64,000 bases of DNA from Flavobacteriaceae bacterium CG2_30_31_66. Its GTDB lineage: Bacteria > Bacteroidota > Bacteroidia > Flavobacteriales > Flavobacteriaceae. The notes under the pieces are model-generated. The model was not told the origin of the DNA. It was given only the letters and a program-made list of their open reading frames with translations, and made no database searches. The DNA lies in NCBI GenBank assembly GCA_001873065.1, contig MNYM01000003.1:1-64000 (forward strand). The letters run 5' to 3'. Below, piece by piece: positions 898 to 56,109 of the stretch (its first letter is position 1; every line of letters starts with the position of its first letter). Position numbers and translations under genes: made by a program.

Positions 898-2913
898 TTA
901 AACCAACCCAGCACGTTTCAACAACGCATCAGGTTTTGGTTCTTTGCCTCGAAAACGTTTATACAGATTCATTGGTTTTTCTGTTCCTCCTTTTGAAAGC
1001 ACATTTTCCTTGAATTTTGTCGCTATTTCTTTGTTGAAAATTCCGTTTTCTAAAAAGTATTCAAATGCATCTGCATCCAACACTTCTGCCCATTTATAGG
1101 AATAATATCCTGCTGAATATCCACCTTGAAAAATATGTGAGAATGAAGTACTCATGCAGTTTTCAGCTACATCAGGATACAATTTCGTGTCAGAAAATGC
1201 CTCATTTTCAAATTCTTTTATGGATGTTATTTCTGAGGGATTTTCACTGTGCCATTTCATGTCTAAAATTCCAAAACTCAATTGACGCAAGGTTTGCATT
1301 CCTTCATGAAAACTAGCTGATTCTTTGATTTTCTCCACATATTTCATCGGGATAATTTCGCCAGTTTTATAATGTTTTGCAAACAATTCTAATGCTTCTT
1401 TTTCATAACACCAATTTTCTAACACTTGACTTGGCAACTCTACAAAATCCCAAGAAACAGAAGTTCCTGACAAACTTGTGTAGGTTGTGTTGGCTAACAT
1501 TCCATGCAAAGCGTGTCCAAATTCGTGAAACAACGTAGTTACTTCATTGAATGTCAATAAGGATGGTTTTGTGGCAGTTGGTTTTGTAAAATTGCAGACA
1601 ATAGAAACATGTGGACGTTCATTTACTTGATTTTGAATAAATTGTGATTTATAGGAAGTCATCCATGCGCCATTTCTTTTGCCTTTTCGTGGATGAAAAT
1701 CTGCGTAAAAAATCGCAATAAAATTATTTTTCGAATCATAAACTTCATAGGTTTTTACCTCTTGATGGTATTTGTCGATATTGAAAACTTCTTTAAAATT
1801 CAAATCAAACAATTTATTTGCGATTGTAAAAACACCTTCAATCACATTTTCCAATTGAAAATAAGGTTTCAATTGTTCTTGATCCAATTCAAACAATTCC
1901 TTTTTCAATTTCTCCCCATAATAAGCACCGTCCCATTTTTCGAGTTGTTCAATTCCGTCTAAGTTTTTAGCATAATTTTCAAGATGTTTGAATTCTCTTT
2001 CTGCAGCAGGTTTCGCTTTTTGTAGTAATTCGTTCGAAAATTCAATTACTTTTTCGGGAGTTTCTGCCATTCGTTCTTCCAACACAAAATGCGCATGACT
2101 TTGATATCCCAATAAATTGGCACGTTCATGTCGCAATTTCACAATGTTTAAAACTATATTTTCATTGTTGAATTCATTGTTTTGAAATCCTTTTTTGCCA
2201 GCAGCAATTGCCATTTTTTTGCGCAATTCTCTGTTTTCTGCATAGGTTACAAAGGGAATATAACTTGGAAAATCTAGGGTAAAAACGAAACCTTCTTTGC
2301 CTTTTTCTTTTGCGATTTCTTGTGCAGCTTCTTTGGCTGATTCTGGCAAACCAGTCAATTCTTTTTCATCTAAAATATGCAGTTCAAAAGCATTGGTTTC
2401 TGCCAAAACATTCTCGCCAAATTGCAAAGAAAGCTTTGATAATTCAGCGTCTATTTTTCGTAATTTGGTTTTGTTTTCTTCGGATAAATTGGCGCCATTT
2501 CTTGCAAATCCTTTGTATTGTTTTTCCAACAACATGGTTTGCTCAGGTGATAATTGCAAGCTATCTTTTGATTCAAAAACCTTTTTAACTCTGGCAAATA
2601 ATTCGTCATTTAAAGTGATATCATTTCTGAATTCGCTTAACAAAGGAGAAACTTTTTGAGCTATTTTTTGAATTTCGTCATTGGTTTCAGCAGCATTCAA
2701 ATTGAAAAAAATACTGGTAATTCTATTCAATTTTTCTCCAACAAAATCGAGTGCAACTGTCGTGTTTTCAAACGTAGGGTTTTCATGATTTGAGACAATT
2801 TCATCAATTTCGGTTTTTGCCAATTCAATTGCTTTTTCAATCGCTGGTTGATAATGTTGCGATTCGATTTTTGAAAAAGGAGCTGTTGTAAAATCTTGTA
2901 AAAGTGGATTCAT
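898..2913 (-). CDS. M3 family metallopeptidase (oligopeptidase A / Dcp-like)
   Basis: HEFGHALHG zinc motif, full-length 671 aa. Confidence 0.92.
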   Translation of the reverse strand: MNPLLQDFTTAPFSKIESQHYQPAIEKAIELAKTEIDEIVSNHENPTFENTTVALDFVGEKLNRITSIFFNLNAAETNDEIQKIAQKVSPLLSEFRNDITLNDELFARVKKVFESKDSLQLSPEQTMLLEKQYKGFARNGANLSEENKTKLRKIDAELSKLSLQFGENVLAETNAFELHILDEKELTGLPESAKEAAQEIAKEKGKEGFVFTLDFPSYIPFVTYAENRELRKKMAIAAGKKGFQNNEFNNENIVLNIVKLRHERANLLGYQSHAHFVLEERMAETPEKVIEFSNELLQKAKPAAEREFKHLENYAKNLDGIEQLEKWDGAYYGEKLKKELFELDQEQLKPYFQLENVIEGVFTIANKLFDLNFKEVFNIDKYHQEVKTYEVYDSKNNFIAIFYADFHPRKGKRNGAWMTSYKSQFIQNQVNERPHVSIVCNFTKPTATKPSLLTFNEVTTLFHEFGHALHGMLANTTYTSLSGTSVSWDFVELPSQVLENWCYEKEALELFAKHYKTGEIIPMKYVEKIKESASFHEGMQTLRQLSFGILDMKWHSENPSEITSIKEFENEAFSDTKLYPDVAENCMSTSFSHIFQGGYSAGYYSYKWAEVLDADAFEYFLENGIFNKEIATKFKENVLSKGGTEKPMNLYKRFRGKEPKPDALLKRAGLV

Positions 2914-49900: not shown

Positions 49901-52507
49901 GCCGCTAAAATGTTGGTGTTTTCCGCAGACAAAGAAAAATATTTAGTTGGGGAAACTGCAAAAATAACCTTTCCTTCAGGTTCAAAAGGAAACGTACTTA
50001 TTAGCATTGAAAATGGTACAAAAATTATCCAAACAAAATGGGTTGCTGTCCAAAAAGGAATGACAACTGTCGAAATTCCTATCACAAAACAAATGACACC
50101 TAACATTTATGCTACAATTTCCTTATTGCAACCTCATCAAATTTCTGAAAACGATTTGCCTATCAGACTTTTTGGAACAATTCCTTTGTTAGTGGAAGAT
50201 GCCTCAACTAAATTAGAGCCTCAAATTTCTATGCCAAATGAATTGCAACCTGAAAAAGAATTCACAGTTTCAATTTCTGAAAAAAACAACAAATCAATGA
50301 CCTATTCTATTGCTGTTGTAGAGGAGGGTTTGCTTGATTTAACAAGATTTAAAACCCCAAATGCTTTTGAAACCTTCTATGCAAGAGAAGCTTTAGGTAT
50401 CAAAACGTGGGATATTTTTGATGATGTGATTGGTGCATATTCAGGAAGCATTGACCAAGTTTTTGCCATTGGTGGTGATGGAAATCTTGAAAAAGGAAAA
50501 AATCCGAAAGTGAATAGATTTCAACCTGTAGTAAACTATTTAGGGCCTTTTTATCTTGAAAAAGGTGCAAAAAAATCACATAAAATTAGGTTGCCAAATT
50601 ATATAGGCTCTTTAAGAACAATGGTGGTTGCTGGAAACATATCTGATGAAGCTTTTGGAAGTGCAGAAAAAACTATTCCTGTAAAAAAACCATTGATGAT
50701 TTTGGCAACATTGCCTAGAAAATTATCCCCAAAAGAAAAAGTGCGATTGCCTATCAGCATTTTTACTATGGATGAAAAAATAAAATCGGTTTCTATAAAA
50801 GTGAAAACTAGCAAAGGAATAAAAGTCAATGGAAATAGTTCACAAATCATCACTTTTACAAAACCTGATGAAAAAATGTGCTATTTTGATTTGGATATTA
50901 AAGATGTTATTGGTTCGCAAACGGTTGAAATTATTGGCACTGGAAATGGCGAAACTTCCACTTACAAAGTCACTTTGGATGTGTTAAATCCGAATCCAAT
51001 TGCCTCTAAAATTAAAGAAGTTACTTTTCAAGGAAACACTGCACAAACTATTGATTTTGAAACATTTGGAGTGGAAGGCTCCAATGCAGCCATCCTAGAA
51101 TTGTCAACAATTCCGGCTATCAATTTCACATCAAGGTTGGCTTCTTTAGTTCAATATCCTCATGGTTGTGTAGAGCAAACCATATCAAGTGTTTTTCCAC
51201 AATTGTACATGAATTCCATTTTTGATATTTCATCAACACAAAAACAAGAGATTCAAGAAAATATTACCAAAGGAATTCAACGAATTGGCAATTTTCAAAA
51301 AGCAAATGGTGGTTTGAGTTATTGGTTAGGAGAAAACGAATTGAGTGACTGGGGAACTTCTTATGCAGGACATTTTATGCTGGAAGCAGAGAAAAAAGGG
51401 TTCGTTTTGCCACTCACTTTTAAGAGTAATTTCATAGCCTATCAAAAACAAATTTCAAGAAATTGGAAACCAAGTTTCAACACCTATGTGGATGATTTGG
51501 AACAAGCTTACAGATTATACACCTTGGCAATGGCAGGAAGTCCTGATTTATCTGCGATGAATAGATTGCGCGAATTTCCAAAACTTTCCAATGAGGCAAA
51601 ATGGCGTTTGGCAGCAGCTTACGTTTTGGCTGGACAAAAAGAAGCGAGCAATGCTATTCTGAAAAATACAAAGTTAGATTTTTCTGAAAGTGAAAATGCT
51701 AACTATGGTTCGTCCATCAGAAATATGGCAATGGCTTTAGAAACTATGCTGTTAACTAATGATAAAAAAACCAAAGAATTGGCAACTTCTATTGCCAAAG
51801 AATTGTCAAGCAATCAATGGATGAGTACGCAAACTACTGCTTTCAGTTTACTGGCAATTGGAAAAATGATCGAAAAAAATGGTGGAAAATCCATGAATGT
51901 CAGTATTTCAATTGGAAACAAATCTGAAAAAATTGCAACAAAATCACCTTTAATTCAAAGAAATATTGTTGTTAAAAATGGCAAAAATTCTATCAAAATT
52001 AAAAACCAAGAAAACAACATCATCTATGGACGAGTTGTTATTTTTGGCAAACCTTCTATTGGAAATGAAATTTCAGAAAGCAGAGGTTTGAGTGTTTCTG
52101 TCCAATACAGCGATTTGAAAGGAAAACCAATCTCAATAAACTCATTAAAACAAGGACAAGATTTTGTGGCGACAATTACGTTGAGCAATCCAAAAAATAA
52201 AACTGTAAATGACATTGCAATCACTCAGGTTTTTCCTTCAGGATGGGAAATTGTCAACACACGTTTTACTGACTTTGGAACTTCCGTTAAAAGTGAAGCA
52301 CGTTATACAGACATCAAAGATGATCGCGTTCATTTTTATGTTGATTTGAAAAAACAAGCTGCCAAGCCAGTGACTAAAACCTTTACTGTTTTGTTAAATG
52401 CTGCATACTTAGGCAATTATTATTTACCTGGAATACAAGTTGAGGCCATGTATGACAATGATTATTTTGTAAAAACCAAAGGAAGTTGGGTAAAAGTAGT
52501 ACAATAA
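46976..52507 (+). CDS. Bacterial alpha-2-macroglobulin family lipoprotein
   Basis: IISC lipobox; YGERGVWRPGDEMYLTFLL; thioester motif YPHGCVEQTISSVFPQLY. Confidence 0.95.
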   Translation: MKTKHLITIFIAIFTIISCTKKNAEPNNIYKFKEYINYTTSGIVSVTEKISVNLAKEVENWEPNKEISSEIIVIRPFVNGKIKILNTHVFEFIPDENLSSNTEYSVTVKLGELYKNTSKEFETYTFQFKTIAPSFNIKIGNIQSYSKEYQYIEGMIQSADIIDLAQAKKLITASQKGNSKNIVWNEAFDKERFFEFKIDSVQRFENESVVNVSWDGKPINASSKGENDIIIPEKNNFTVLSINPVDTNEQYISLNFSDALKKQQNFDGLITIENEKNPRFIVNGNELKVFSEVKFSGNIKVSAFQGIRNTEDSSLKNSFSETITFDQQKPEIRAISNGVILPNSSNLKFNFEVINVKAVDVKIIKIFENNVLQFLQESYLNGNDEYELKRVGRRVAKETITLIADEKNYTQNWRAYSIDIAKMVATEPGAIYRIEISFNQQQVLYNCSETKNSNDFETSSNHEEISDEDQKEEEYWDNLLYSYQDYDYNWNERNNPCNKAYYKTGERFIAQNLLASNLGITVKKGTNDEYFFAITNILTSKPEGNAKVRLFNYQQQEIASKNTDLEGFVTVSSPKNAAFAVVSKGKNKGYIRLDDGKTLSLSNFDVSGTQTQKGLKGFIYGERGVWRPGDEMYLTFLLNDAENPLPKNHPIKLEIMDPEGKLMFKKVTSENLNNFYKFTVKTSPEAKTGNYTAQVSVGGARFYKNLNVETVKPNRLKIKVDFKDEILSNQKPIRGVLDVKWLQGTPAKNLKTTISAKISATNFSFKNYNNYFFSDPSRSFSTEELTFFEGKTDENGIAKIENSLKIGENVPGMLQVQFLVKAFENGGDFSIDAFTKNYAPYTSFVGLKLPTLEENGALSTDKNQPFSIISVDENGKPIQNDEVEVAIYQIAWRWWWSSSDDYLSKYTSSSYHKPYKFFNVKTNSKGEASFSLNISETERGRFLVRVVDKKSGHATGKVVYFYKNWWENATSGDKEAAKMLVFSADKEKYLVGETAKITFPSGSKGNVLISIENGTKIIQTKWVAVQKGMTTVEIPITKQMTPNIYATISLLQPHQISENDLPIRLFGTIPLLVEDASTKLEPQISMPNELQPEKEFTVSISEKNNKSMTYSIAVVEEGLLDLTRFKTPNAFETFYAREALGIKTWDIFDDVIGAYSGSIDQVFAIGGDGNLEKGKNPKVNRFQPVVNYLGPFYLEKGAKKSHKIRLPNYIGSLRTMVVAGNISDEAFGSAEKTIPVKKPLMILATLPRKLSPKEKVRLPISIFTMDEKIKSVSIKVKTSKGIKVNGNSSQIITFTKPDEKMCYFDLDIKDVIGSQTVEIIGTGNGETSTYKVTLDVLNPNPIASKIKEVTFQGNTAQTIDFETFGVEGSNAAILELSTIPAINFTSRLASLVQYPHGCVEQTISSVFPQLYMNSIFDISSTQKQEIQENITKGIQRIGNFQKANGGLSYWLGENELSDWGTSYAGHFMLEAEKKGFVLPLTFKSNFIAYQKQISRNWKPSFNTYVDDLEQAYRLYTLAMAGSPDLSAMNRLREFPKLSNEAKWRLAAAYVLAGQKEASNAILKNTKLDFSESENANYGSSIRNMAMALETMLLTNDKKTKELATSIAKELSSNQWMSTQTTAFSLLAIGKMIEKNGGKSMNVSISIGNKSEKIATKSPLIQRNIVVKNGKNSIKIKNQENNIIYGRVVIFGKPSIGNEISESRGLSVSVQYSDLKGKPISINSLKQGQDFVATITLSNPKNKTVNDIAITQVFPSGWEIVNTRFTDFGTSVKSEARYTDIKDDRVHFYVDLKKQAAKPVTKTFTVLLNAAYLGNYYLPGIQVEAMYDNDYFVKTKGSWVKVVQ

Positions 52508-54840
52508 CAAGGGGTTTTAACCCCTTGTTGAAATGGGTATTTATTTCAGTATTTCTATTGTTATATGTATTTTGTTTACCCAAAAAGTTGTTTACAAAAC
52601 CAACATCGACAGTTATTGTAAGCAAAGAAAATGAACTTTTAGGAGCTTTGATTGCTGATGATGGTCAATGGCGTTTTCCGCATGAAAATGAAGTTCCCGA
52701 AAAATTCAAAACGTGTGTTATTCAGTTTGAAGATGCTCACTTTTACAAACATTTTGGATTCAATCCAATTTCGATTTTTAAGTCAATTCAACAAAATTTT
52801 CGATCAAAGAAAATCATAAGAGGTGGCAGCACACTAACGCAACAAGTCATTAGACTCAGTAGAGACCAAAAATCAAGAACCTATTTTGAAAAAATCAAAG
52901 AACTGATTTTAGCAACTCGTTTGGAATTCAGAAATTCGAAAGAAGAAATCCTAGCTTTTTGGTCTTCAAATGCGCCTTTTGGAGGAAATGTTGTAGGATT
53001 GCAAGCAGCTTCTTGGCGTTATTTTAATAGAAATGCCTTTGAACTTTCTTGGGCGGAAGCAGCCACATTAGCAGTGTTGCCTAATGCACCAAACTTAATG
53101 TATCCAGGAAAAAACAAGCACCAATTATTAAAAAAAAGAAATCGACTATTGCTAAAATTACTTCGGGAAAATAAAATTGATTCGCTCACGTATCAACTGG
53201 CTATTTTAGAGGAAATTCCTGAAAAACCATTTCCTTTGCCACAAATTGCAACCCATTTATTGCAAAAAATTCATACGCAAAGAAAAGGTGAATTTGTAAA
53301 AACTACGATTGATAAAAAGCTTCAAATGCAAGCAAATGAAATTATTCAACAGCATTACAATCAGTTGTCAAAAAACGGAATTCACAATGGCGCAATTTTA
53401 ATTTTAGATGTAAAAACAAGAAAAGTTTTGGCATATATTGGAAATACTCCCACAAACCAAGATCATCAAAAAGATGTGGATATTATCGACAAACCCAGAA
53501 GTACAGGAAGCATTTTAAAACCATTTTTGTACGCAGCAATGTTAGACAACGGAGAATTGTTGCCCAATACTTTAGTAGCAGATGTGCCTTCTAATTTTGG
53601 TAGTTATCATCCTGAAAACTTCGACAAAAGTTATGCTGGTGCAGTTTCTGCAAAATTAGCGTTGTCAAAATCGTTAAATGTGCCAACTGTGAGAATGTTA
53701 CAACAATTTGGTCTTGAAAAATTTCATCATTATTTACAAAAATTACGATTAAAAGATATTAAAAAAAGTGCCAATCATTACGGATTAACATTGGCTTTAG
53801 GAGGCGCAGAAAGCAATCTGTGGGATTTGTCAAAAACATTTGCAGCTATGGCTTCTACCATCAATCATTATACTGAAAATTCTAGTAGCTATTTCACAAA
53901 TGAGTTTTGTGAACCTACTTTTTTGGCTGATAAAAACGTGAATTTCGGAACAAAAACTTTTGAAAAAATCATTTTTGATGCAGCTTCCATTTATTTAACT
54001 TTTGAAAGTTTGAAAGAAGTAAACAGACCAAATGCCGAGGAAAATTGGGCTTTTTTCGATTCGTCAAAACAAATTGCTTGGAAAACAGGCACCAGTTTTG
54101 GCTTTAGAGATGCTTGGGCAATTGGCGCAACCAAAGATTTTGTAGTAGGAGTTTGGATTGGCAATGCAGATGGCGAAGGCAGGCCTGGTTTAGTAGGCGT
54201 TCAAACTGCTGCGCCAATATTGTTTGATGTTTTCGATAAAATTCCAAATTCGACTTGGTTTGAAAAACCTTTTGATGAAATGACAGAGGTAGAAATTTGC
54301 ACCAAAAGCGGTTTTAGAGCTACAGAAATTTGTGAAGAAAAGCAATTTATGTTTATACAAAATAGTGGCTTAAAAACAGCACCTTGTCCATATCATATCC
54401 TTGTAAATACTGATTTATCTGAGAAATTTCAAGTAAATACTTCGTGCGAATTTTTTACGAATATCAAGCAAAAATCGTGGTTTGTATTGCCCCCTTTGAT
54501 GGCATATTATTATAGAGAAAAAAACCCATTTTACACATCTTTGCCTAATTTTAGGGACGATTGTATTTCAGACGAAAAAAACACGATGAAATTTTTATAT
54601 CCTTCAGAAAAAACGACCATTTTTTTACCCAAAGATTTTGAAGGAAAAACCAATGAACTGATTTTAAAAGTGGCACATTCTAATAAAAATGCTACACTGT
54701 ATTGGTATTTGAATCGTACTTTTCTAGGCACAACCAACGAATTGCATCACATGGCGATTGTGCCAAAAGATGGATTGCATACCATTTCTGTTACAGATAA
54801 TTTTGGTTTGGAAATTCGGCAAACAATTATTATTAAATAA
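52486..54840 (+). CDS. pbpC: Penicillin-binding protein 1C
   Basis: QFEDAHFYKHFGFNPISIFKSIQQNF...RGGSTLTQQVIRLSR; transpeptidase KPRSTGSILKPFLYA; downstream of A2M; 5' end uncertain (in-frame TTG codons, no ATG before the conserved region). Confidence 0.92.
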   Translation: MGKSSTITRGFNPLLKWVFISVFLLLYVFCLPKKLFTKPTSTVIVSKENELLGALIADDGQWRFPHENEVPEKFKTCVIQFEDAHFYKHFGFNPISIFKSIQQNFRSKKIIRGGSTLTQQVIRLSRDQKSRTYFEKIKELILATRLEFRNSKEEILAFWSSNAPFGGNVVGLQAASWRYFNRNAFELSWAEAATLAVLPNAPNLMYPGKNKHQLLKKRNRLLLKLLRENKIDSLTYQLAILEEIPEKPFPLPQIATHLLQKIHTQRKGEFVKTTIDKKLQMQANEIIQQHYNQLSKNGIHNGAILILDVKTRKVLAYIGNTPTNQDHQKDVDIIDKPRSTGSILKPFLYAAMLDNGELLPNTLVADVPSNFGSYHPENFDKSYAGAVSAKLALSKSLNVPTVRMLQQFGLEKFHHYLQKLRLKDIKKSANHYGLTLALGGAESNLWDLSKTFAAMASTINHYTENSSSYFTNEFCEPTFLADKNVNFGTKTFEKIIFDAASIYLTFESLKEVNRPNAEENWAFFDSSKQIAWKTGTSFGFRDAWAIGATKDFVVGVWIGNADGEGRPGLVGVQTAAPILFDVFDKIPNSTWFEKPFDEMTEVEICTKSGFRATEICEEKQFMFIQNSGLKTAPCPYHILVNTDLSEKFQVNTSCEFFTNIKQKSWFVLPPLMAYYYREKNPFYTSLPNFRDDCISDEKNTMKFLYPSEKTTIFLPKDFEGKTNELILKVAHSNKNATLYWYLNRTFLGTTNELHHMAIVPKDGLHTISVTDNFGLEIRQTIIIK

Positions 54841-54857
54841 TAAACCTATACTTTAGT

Positions 54858-55088
54858 TTTTAGTACTTCTTTCAAAACGGTTGGCACTTCCTTCAAGGGG
54901 TTTGTTACTTCCTACGAGATGTTTGGCGTTTCCTACGAGCAGTTTGCTACTTCCTACGAGCAGTTTGCTACTTCCTACGAGTAGTTTGCTACTTCCTACG
55001 AGGGGTTTGCTATTTCCTACGAATAGTTTGGCATTTCCTACGAATAGTTTGGCGTTTCCTTCGAAGAGTTTGGCGTTTCCTTCGAAGT
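54858..55088. repeat. Eleven-copy imperfect 21-bp tandem repeat
   Basis: Units such as gtttgctacttcctacgagca x3-4 with graded variants; phase kept from 54858 to 55088. Confidence 0.97.
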
Positions 55089-55266
55089 TTTGAAAATCGT
55101 TTAAGCATTTTCAATTATTAATAATGAATACCCGACAAGGTCTTTGAAATCATGAGGGAAAAGAACAAAATTTGTTTACAAAATCATAAAAAAGTCAAAA
55201 AAGATTTGCAACCATTTTGAAATGATTATTTTTATAACTTATTTCGTAGTAGAGCTTTTTTATAAG

Positions 55267-56109
55267 ATGAAAATATATCCCATAGAAACAGGAAATTTTA
55301 AATTGGATGGAGGCGCCATGTTTGGGGTTGTTCCCAAATCTATTTGGCAAAAAACCAATCCTGCAGACGCTAATAATTTGATAGAAATGAGCATGCGTTG
55401 CTTGTTAATTGAAGATGGGAATCGTTTGATTTTGGTGGATACGGGCATGGGCAAGAAACAATCAGATAAATTTTTTGGGTATTATTATCTTTTTGGCGAC
55501 TTTTCATTAGACAATTCCTTGAAAAAACTGGGATTTCACAAAGACGATATTACTGATGTTTTTCTGACTCATTTGCATTTTGATCATTGTGGTGGCGTCA
55601 TCGAAAAAGATACAAACGGATTGTTCATTCCTGCGTTTAAAAATGCCAAAGTGTGGTCTAATGACAAACATTGGAAATGGGCAACAGAGCCCAATGCACG
55701 AGAAAAAGCCTCTTTTTTAAAAGAAAATATTCAGCCAATCCAAGAAAATGGACAGCTCAATTTTATTCACAGAAATTCGAAAGATCAAATGGGTTTTGAG
55801 GTGTTGTTTGTGGACGGTCACACAGAAAAACAAATGTTGCCAATCATTGAATATCAAGGAAAAACCATTGTTTTTGTGGCAGATTTGCTTCCCACAGTTG
55901 GGCATATTCCTTTACCTTATGTGATGGGTTATGACACAAGGCCTTTGTTGACGATTAAAGAAAAAGCCTCTTTTTTAAAACAAGCTGCTGATCACAATTT
56001 TTACCTTTTTTTAGAGCATGATGCCACCAACGAATTATGTACTGTATATCACACAGAAAAAGGCATCAGACTAAATACAACTCACCAATTTTCAGAAATA
56101 TTTAATTAA
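55267..56109 (+). CDS. MBL-fold metallo-hydrolase
   Basis: TDVFLTHLHFDHCGGVI (HxHxDH); LFVDGHTEKQMLP; start revised to 55267. Confidence 0.93.
   Translation: MKIYPIETGNFKLDGGAMFGVVPKSIWQKTNPADANNLIEMSMRCLLIEDGNRLILVDTGMGKKQSDKFFGYYYLFGDFSLDNSLKKLGFHKDDITDVFLTHLHFDHCGGVIEKDTNGLFIPAFKNAKVWSNDKHWKWATEPNAREKASFLKENIQPIQENGQLNFIHRNSKDQMGFEVLFVDGHTEKQMLPIIEYQGKTIVFVADLLPTVGHIPLPYVMGYDTRPLLTIKEKASFLKQAADHNFYLFLEHDATNELCTVYHTEKGIRLNTTHQFSEIFN

Follow-up and report, generated by a model that had tools for sequence, protein, structure and literature searches.

Helically phased direct repeats lying upstream of the gene for a self-repressing binding protein are known from parC-ParR of plasmid R1 and from iterons. 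A second described layout is that of the type III toxin-antitoxin systems (ToxIN, CptIN, TenpIN), in which non-coding tandem repeats stand directly upstream of one protein gene and vary greatly between loci, repeat and protein forming co-varying pairs (PMC4627078). Intergenic tandem repeats are also known from the bacterial group to which the genome analyzed here belongs, as intergenic satellites and VNTRs, including the 7-bp VNTRs of Flavobacterium psychrophilum; the papers describing them report no tie to a protein family (PMC4501049, PMC6749651). The protein family considered in this work, the “PQLLE family” of NCBIfam (NF052641), bears a name that refers to a conserved motif only, with no function, structure or array attached, and no paper using this name was found in the open-access literature.

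The window, i.e., the whole stretch of 64,000 nucleotides analyzed here, carries eleven 21-bp units in register between pbpC and the gene of a metallo-beta-lactamase-fold hydrolase (Table 1); the first and the last unit are degenerate and the borders approximate. The first-pass annotation had reported the same eleven units at 54858-55088, and the array itself was borne out by TRF and by the unit tables, whereas its coordinates turned out to be off by about 7 bp. TRF returned, at 54886-55086, a period of 21 with 7.9-8.5 copies (score 178) and a 63-bp superperiod (score 220). The identity at lag 21 is 0.81, versus 0.27 predicted by composition, and lag 21 was the best one in 143/143 local test segments (phase fidelity 1.00). 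The identities at lags 7 and 14 are those of the background, which speaks against the origin of the unit from a heptamer (3 x 7 bp). Neighbouring units are the most alike, as had been stated earlier: identity declines with distance, from 0.81 for direct neighbours to 0.43 for units ten positions apart, and shuffling the unit order 5000 times never reached the adjacent-unit value. On the minus strand the unit reads GTAGGAAnnnnCAAAC and the A-T skew of the array is +0.32. The units follow each other head to tail without spacers and no cas gene was recognised, by reading, among the surrounding ORFs, which speaks against a CRISPR array.

The naming of the two flanking genes also held, pbpC being recovered by TIGR02073 and the hydrolase falling nearest to the YtnP lactonases, below the cut-off of that model (NF047919, 186 bits against 425). 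The hydrolase start, ATG 55267, was read from the sequence and agrees with the starts in relatives; the 3' end of pbpC is complete and lies 24 bp before the array. The hydrolase gene borders on most of pbpC in five relatives (L045, L046, L049, L052, L055), and in all of them the junction is without array.

Table 1. Features of the window and further period-21 arrays of the same genome (family orientation is the A-rich strand, as seen upstream of PQLLE genes).
Feature	Location	Position	Strand	Evidence and remarks
Eleven-unit 21-bp array	Window	54865..55095	-	TRF, unit tables; A-rich-strand (family-orientation) unit GTAGGAAnnnnCAAACnnnnC
Best-conserved stretch of seven consecutive units, TTCCTACGA intact in each (minus TCGTAGGAA)	Window	54907..55053	-	Unit table, pattern matches
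pbpC, penicillin-binding protein 1C; neighbour outside the module	Window	52486..54840	+	TIGR02073 682 bits; PF00912, PF00905, PF06832
Metallo-beta-lactamase-fold hydrolase; neighbour outside the module	Window	55267..56109	+	PF00753 74 bits
Array of about 16 units	C43	65272-65607		Core and register as in the window; downstream of NUDIX gene
Array	C36	about 2450-2610		Directly upstream of PQLLE gene
Array	C31	15908-16014		Found in 400-kb sample; directly upstream of PQLLE gene
Array	C22			Upstream of the C22 PQLLE gene

Uniqueness of the repeat to this locus, which the first-pass annotation had named among the conditions that would refute its reading, is contradicted by the genome itself (G000; 2.99 Mb, 50 contigs), in which at least four period-21 arrays were found besides that of the window, this count being a lower bound. 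Judging by its relatives, the genome probably comes from a Flavobacterium or a close kin. Three of them (C36, C31, C22) are each directly upstream of a gene for one 219-aa protein, and these genes reach 220-254 bits against NF052641 (cut-off 80). The motif GTAGGA(A), read on one strand, is common to the units of the window, C43 and C36 arrays and is not shared by those of C31 and C22. The minus-strand profile of the window unit correlates with the units of C43 (0.70), C36 (0.52) and, in other genomes, G127 (0.57), G026 (0.51) and G080 (0.45), with p<0.005 in each case, while the opposite-strand correlation with the same arrays is weak (0.11-0.27); the G026 array, too, is directly upstream of a PQLLE-family gene. 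By its sequence, the window unit is a member of the subfamily that precedes the C36-type gene in the same genome.

The PQLLE family was detected in 12 of 168 genomes of the genus, in 8 of the 396 genomes of the phylum sample and in none of 14 control genomes. Linkage was measured in the 900 bp preceding the start codon, where the best self-match was taken for every lag between 10 and 40. In the first two sets of genes, period 21 was the top lag upstream of 23/25 family genes, and 20 of these 25 upstream regions score at least 0.60 at period 21, versus 1.1% of 3000 random 900-bp segments. Within the genus, period-21 arrays precede all the copies with an intact 5' end (14/14); the same applies to nearly all the remote copies, which belong to other families of Bacteroidota and include one from a GC-rich genome. 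In a later, independent set, used for testing the linkage prediction and restricted to the 17 genes whose 5' end is intact and whose upstream sequence is long enough, period 21 ranked first in 14 and second in two. Arrays are absent or weak at L222, L256 (in the later set, with a weak array) and L246; the N-terminally truncated copy L250 has no array upstream, and the 3' gene fragment L259 still has one. Thus, the array and the PQLLE gene represent a conserved two-part locus across Bacteroidota. The association with a gene was outside the view of the first-pass annotation, whose interpretation is partly supported.

The surroundings of these loci are heterogeneous. Restriction-modification, SIR2-like or reverse-transcriptase genes are neighbours of some of them, and most of the neighbours look, by reading, like housekeeping genes or insertion sequences, so that a preferred location in defence islands appears unlikely. 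Carriage of the family by phages or plasmids was not found either, with no match in 72,556 plasmids. A PQLLE array of G080 is closely preceded by the end of a reverse transcriptase gene (RVT_1; L226 9673-11388). Downstream of two remote homologues we read a REP-associated (Y1-type) transposase and an integron-type tyrosine recombinase (L215 2205-2771 and L216 2302-3342, gene-oriented). In the MALKN-type subgroup (L196, L197, L207) a small hairpin, CACTGYY...RRCRGTG, with apparently compensating changes, is embedded between array and gene, about 60-100 bp before the ATG.

What is kept in the arrays is their spacing. The best local lag in the range 16-26 is 21 in 94-100% of the segments of all the linked arrays, except for L202 (83%) and L222, which lacks a period-21 array, and this spacing persists in arrays whose units are often only about 60% alike. 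The sequence of the unit, in turn, differs between loci and between paralogues of the same genome, spacing being almost invariant at 21 bp. This holds even within G819, with eight PQLLE paralogues (L246, L252, L256, L258, L260-L263), the upstream units of which are all different and two of the arrays weak. Since the unit sequence is not the conserved feature, the core pattern alone finds almost no other matches in the genus or in the phylum. The exact-core search with TTCCTACGAA pairs in the genome and viral collections was misleading and led to Pontibacillus litoralis and to a viral contig, both treated as unrelated. The former (NZ_AVPG01000014.1; L041 1498-2317) holds about 40 copies of a roughly 21-bp unit, CGACTTTCCTACGAATGCGAG, with 19-21-bp variants, between the gene of a GntR-type regulator and an opposite-strand gene, and has no PQLLE gene; the latter (IMGVR_UViG_3300045741_000405; L042 8440-8660) holds a period-21 array, ATTCCTACGAATATAGGCGTT, beside shorter direct repeats, and resembles a replication origin.

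Protein identity and unit similarity are correlated over 38 loci (Mantel r=0.29, p<0.0005), mostly through proteins more than 60% identical; this fits a matched evolution of the two parts and may also be due to shared descent. With one genome per species in the analysis, the hypervariable locus that the first-pass annotation had listed among its options could be viewed through one orthologous pair of arrays, that of the collinear loci of G005 and G139: the gene of G005 is cut after about 15 codons, and the adjacent array, about 92% identical in the two genomes, has remained in register, no unit having been added or removed.

These data bear on another explanation of the window array, namely a 21-bp sequence without function, amplified in this lineage by replication slippage and similar to the C36-type arrays only through copying from one of them. 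This idea would account for the likeness of adjacent units and for the absence of the array at the orthologous junction in relatives; it is also in agreement with the gene-less period-21 arrays with unrelated units occurring in the genus and with the 7-bp repeats, which are common there too, as exemplified by the VNTRs of F. psychrophilum (PMC4501049). It leaves unexplained, however, that nearly all PQLLE genes of the phylum are preceded by arrays, that a 21-bp register is strictly maintained where 40% of the identity between units is gone, and that an array has been kept in register between two species, and we consider a neutral minisatellite improbable. The 7-bp arrays are themselves of a different kind, being nearly perfect, whereas the array of the window combines period 21 with diverged units and has no 7-bp sub-period. 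The 7-bp arrays represent a second common repeat class in the genus (AACTTCC, GAAGTTG, AGTTAGA, CTAACCA and others), located in the relatives at L130, L134, L135, L137, L138, L144, L151 and L191 and in the genome analyzed here at L172 (14443-14491).

In G010 (L140 956-1435 and 1535-1753) a period-21 array, ACCAAAAAGGCTCAACGTTCC, lies about 100 bp downstream of a different protein of 159 aa, MENKISIEIPAADLQ..., for which no Pfam or NCBIfam family was found and which possibly represents a second array-linked protein family.

The first-pass annotation had also pointed to one open frame on each strand of the window array. This is correct, and the plus-strand frame additionally has a TTG start (70-aa ORF, 54881-55093). 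However, a 21-bp unit without stops makes an open frame automatic, which is why the frames are open throughout. A translated heptad-repeat peptide, (LLLPTSS)n on the plus strand or (VGNAKLF)n on the minus strand, could be advocated on the basis of these frames and of the C36 array, which is in frame with its gene (305-aa ORF). Such a peptide would have no ATG start; the sister C43 array contains four TAA in the minus frame matching that of the window; and stops occur in all three gene-strand frames of nearly all the linked arrays. The stops speak against the degenerate heptad-peptide gene that had been listed among the options and favour the non-coding repeat listed beside it; overall, we give the translated peptide hardly any credit.

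Which kind of partner might a non-coding array of fixed spacing have? The PQLLE protein shows no significant match in Pfam, PHROG or PADLOC (the last with a partial library), and no recognisable DNA-binding domain, ribbon-helix-helix or Rep domain; its pI ranges from 5.1 to 9.1. The AlphaFold2 model (13 sequences; pLDDT 91.5, pTM 0.74) is all-helical and internally duplicated, the segments 9-25/27-35/40-95/100-105 being repeated as 116-132/134-141/147-202/207-212, so that each half is predicted to contain helices of 17 and 56 residues, either of them followed by a short one. A Foldseek search with this model gave no hit at E<=0.001 in PDB or BFVD; the best ones were generic coiled coils. The search for solved relatives had a best E of 0.019, judged as chance.

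We suggest that the PQLLE protein might have its cognate platform in the array. With 21 bp per unit, corresponding to two turns of B-DNA, the sites, one in each unit, would all lie on one side of the helix, and the internally duplicated helical protein might assemble along the array and control its own gene. We lean towards the DNA version of this idea, given that the period of 21 bp makes two B-DNA turns and almost never gives way to 20 or 22. Of the options proposed earlier, a protein-binding array is the mechanism best supported by the fixed-spacing arrays upstream of one protein family; the binding of the PQLLE protein to it is what we infer. We regard it as rather probable that the normal place of the array is directly upstream of a PQLLE gene and that the array serves as a platform for the cognate protein. 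The resemblance to partition centromeres and iterons concerns, by analogy, the phased direct repeats upstream of a protein gene; however, the PQLLE genes inspected had no recognisable partition ATPase or replication gene next to them, and the PQLLE loci are chromosomal. A dyad-symmetric operator receives no support from the units, 5/44 of which show dyad symmetry at p<0.05, i.e., not beyond chance, and no 10-11-bp half-repeat was found in them. The same is true for curved DNA from phased A-tracts, the AA/TT autocorrelation at lag 10-11 being near zero in most arrays.

Further observations argue against a platform of this kind. Period-21 arrays with other units exist in G002, G010 and G127, where no family gene was found, and arrays are weak or missing at some PQLLE copies, as described above. 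The gene strand of the arrays has an A-over-T skew of 0.28, versus 0.06 in control upstream regions (p=6e-11), and such a strand asymmetry, which DNA binding does not need, favours a role at the RNA level. The nearest alternative is indeed that the array is transcribed as an A-rich leader RNA binding the protein, orphan arrays then providing decoy or spare RNAs. Two features keep this version in play, the strand skew and the short distance from the array to the start codon: arrays of the C36-type group stop about 30-100 bp ahead of the ATG, and a search of this interval revealed no canonical Bacteroidetes promoter. Tandem repeats followed by one protein gene would fit it as well, and so would the presence in one genome of many paralogues with individual units (eight in G819). 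On the other hand, the RNA structure predicted for most arrays does not exceed that of shuffled sequences (gene-strand z near 0, with a program that is blind to pseudoknots) and the scan with a partial Rfam library gave no family at the gathering score, so that no consistent signal of a structured RNA emerges; moreover, it is not obvious what a spacing of exactly 21 nt would mean for an RNA without structure. The all-helical model also contrasts with the solved type III toxins, which are beta-sheet ribonucleases bound to pseudoknots (PMC4627078), and PADLOC gave no match. On balance we hold the leader RNA to be unlikely, even though it stands above the neutral minisatellite.

Among the known systems, the type III toxin-antitoxin loci have the closest layout. 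They differ in that their repeats form a pseudoknot, whereas the PQLLE unit is almost always 21 long and mostly unstructured according to a prediction blind to pseudoknots, and in that their protein is a ToxN-like endoribonuclease with a twisted beta-sheet, whereas the PQLLE protein is modelled as all-helical. Since the ribonuclease fold does not match and structured RNA was not seen, we did not file the PQLLE module there; it might conceivably still work in a similar way. The two-part module of Bacteroidota is apparently undescribed so far, as far as open-access papers are concerned. Setting it apart as new, with the window holding the array alone, is based on the failed assignments to known systems and on that open-access literature.

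Coming back to the window with the cognate platform as the preferred reading, the place where a PQLLE gene would be expected, i.e., downstream on the A-rich strand, is occupied by the 3' end of pbpC, and a profile search revealed no PQLLE homologue in the window nor in the 6.4 kb around the C43 array. Because no PQLLE gene lies downstream on the A-rich strand, we call the window array an orphan: as judged from its units and surroundings, it is probably a gene-less member of the family of PQLLE-linked 21-bp arrays and not a complete module. As seen in the comparison of G005 with G139, gene loss can leave arrays behind; the window array, which no close relative shares, may have arisen in this way or by the copying of an array alone. 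The C36-type protein might bind the orphan arrays of the window and C43 in trans, as additional platforms, or these arrays might be relics after gene loss, and it is a fair possibility that the window array has no present function.

Taken as a whole, the picture that we put forward, somewhat tentatively, is that of an undescribed system of Bacteroidota consisting of a helically phased 21-bp array and its own internally duplicated helical protein, in which the copies present within a genome would each have a different repeat as their “key” and orphan arrays could act in trans on neighbouring genes through a protein encoded elsewhere. The eight paralogues of G819 offer a natural test bed for cognate specificity. 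An intergenic repeat resembling the product of ordinary slippage can be the detached part of a conserved module. NF052641, a family with a name and without a function, gains a constant partner, i.e., an array with kept spacing and free sequence, and repeat and protein look like matched partners.
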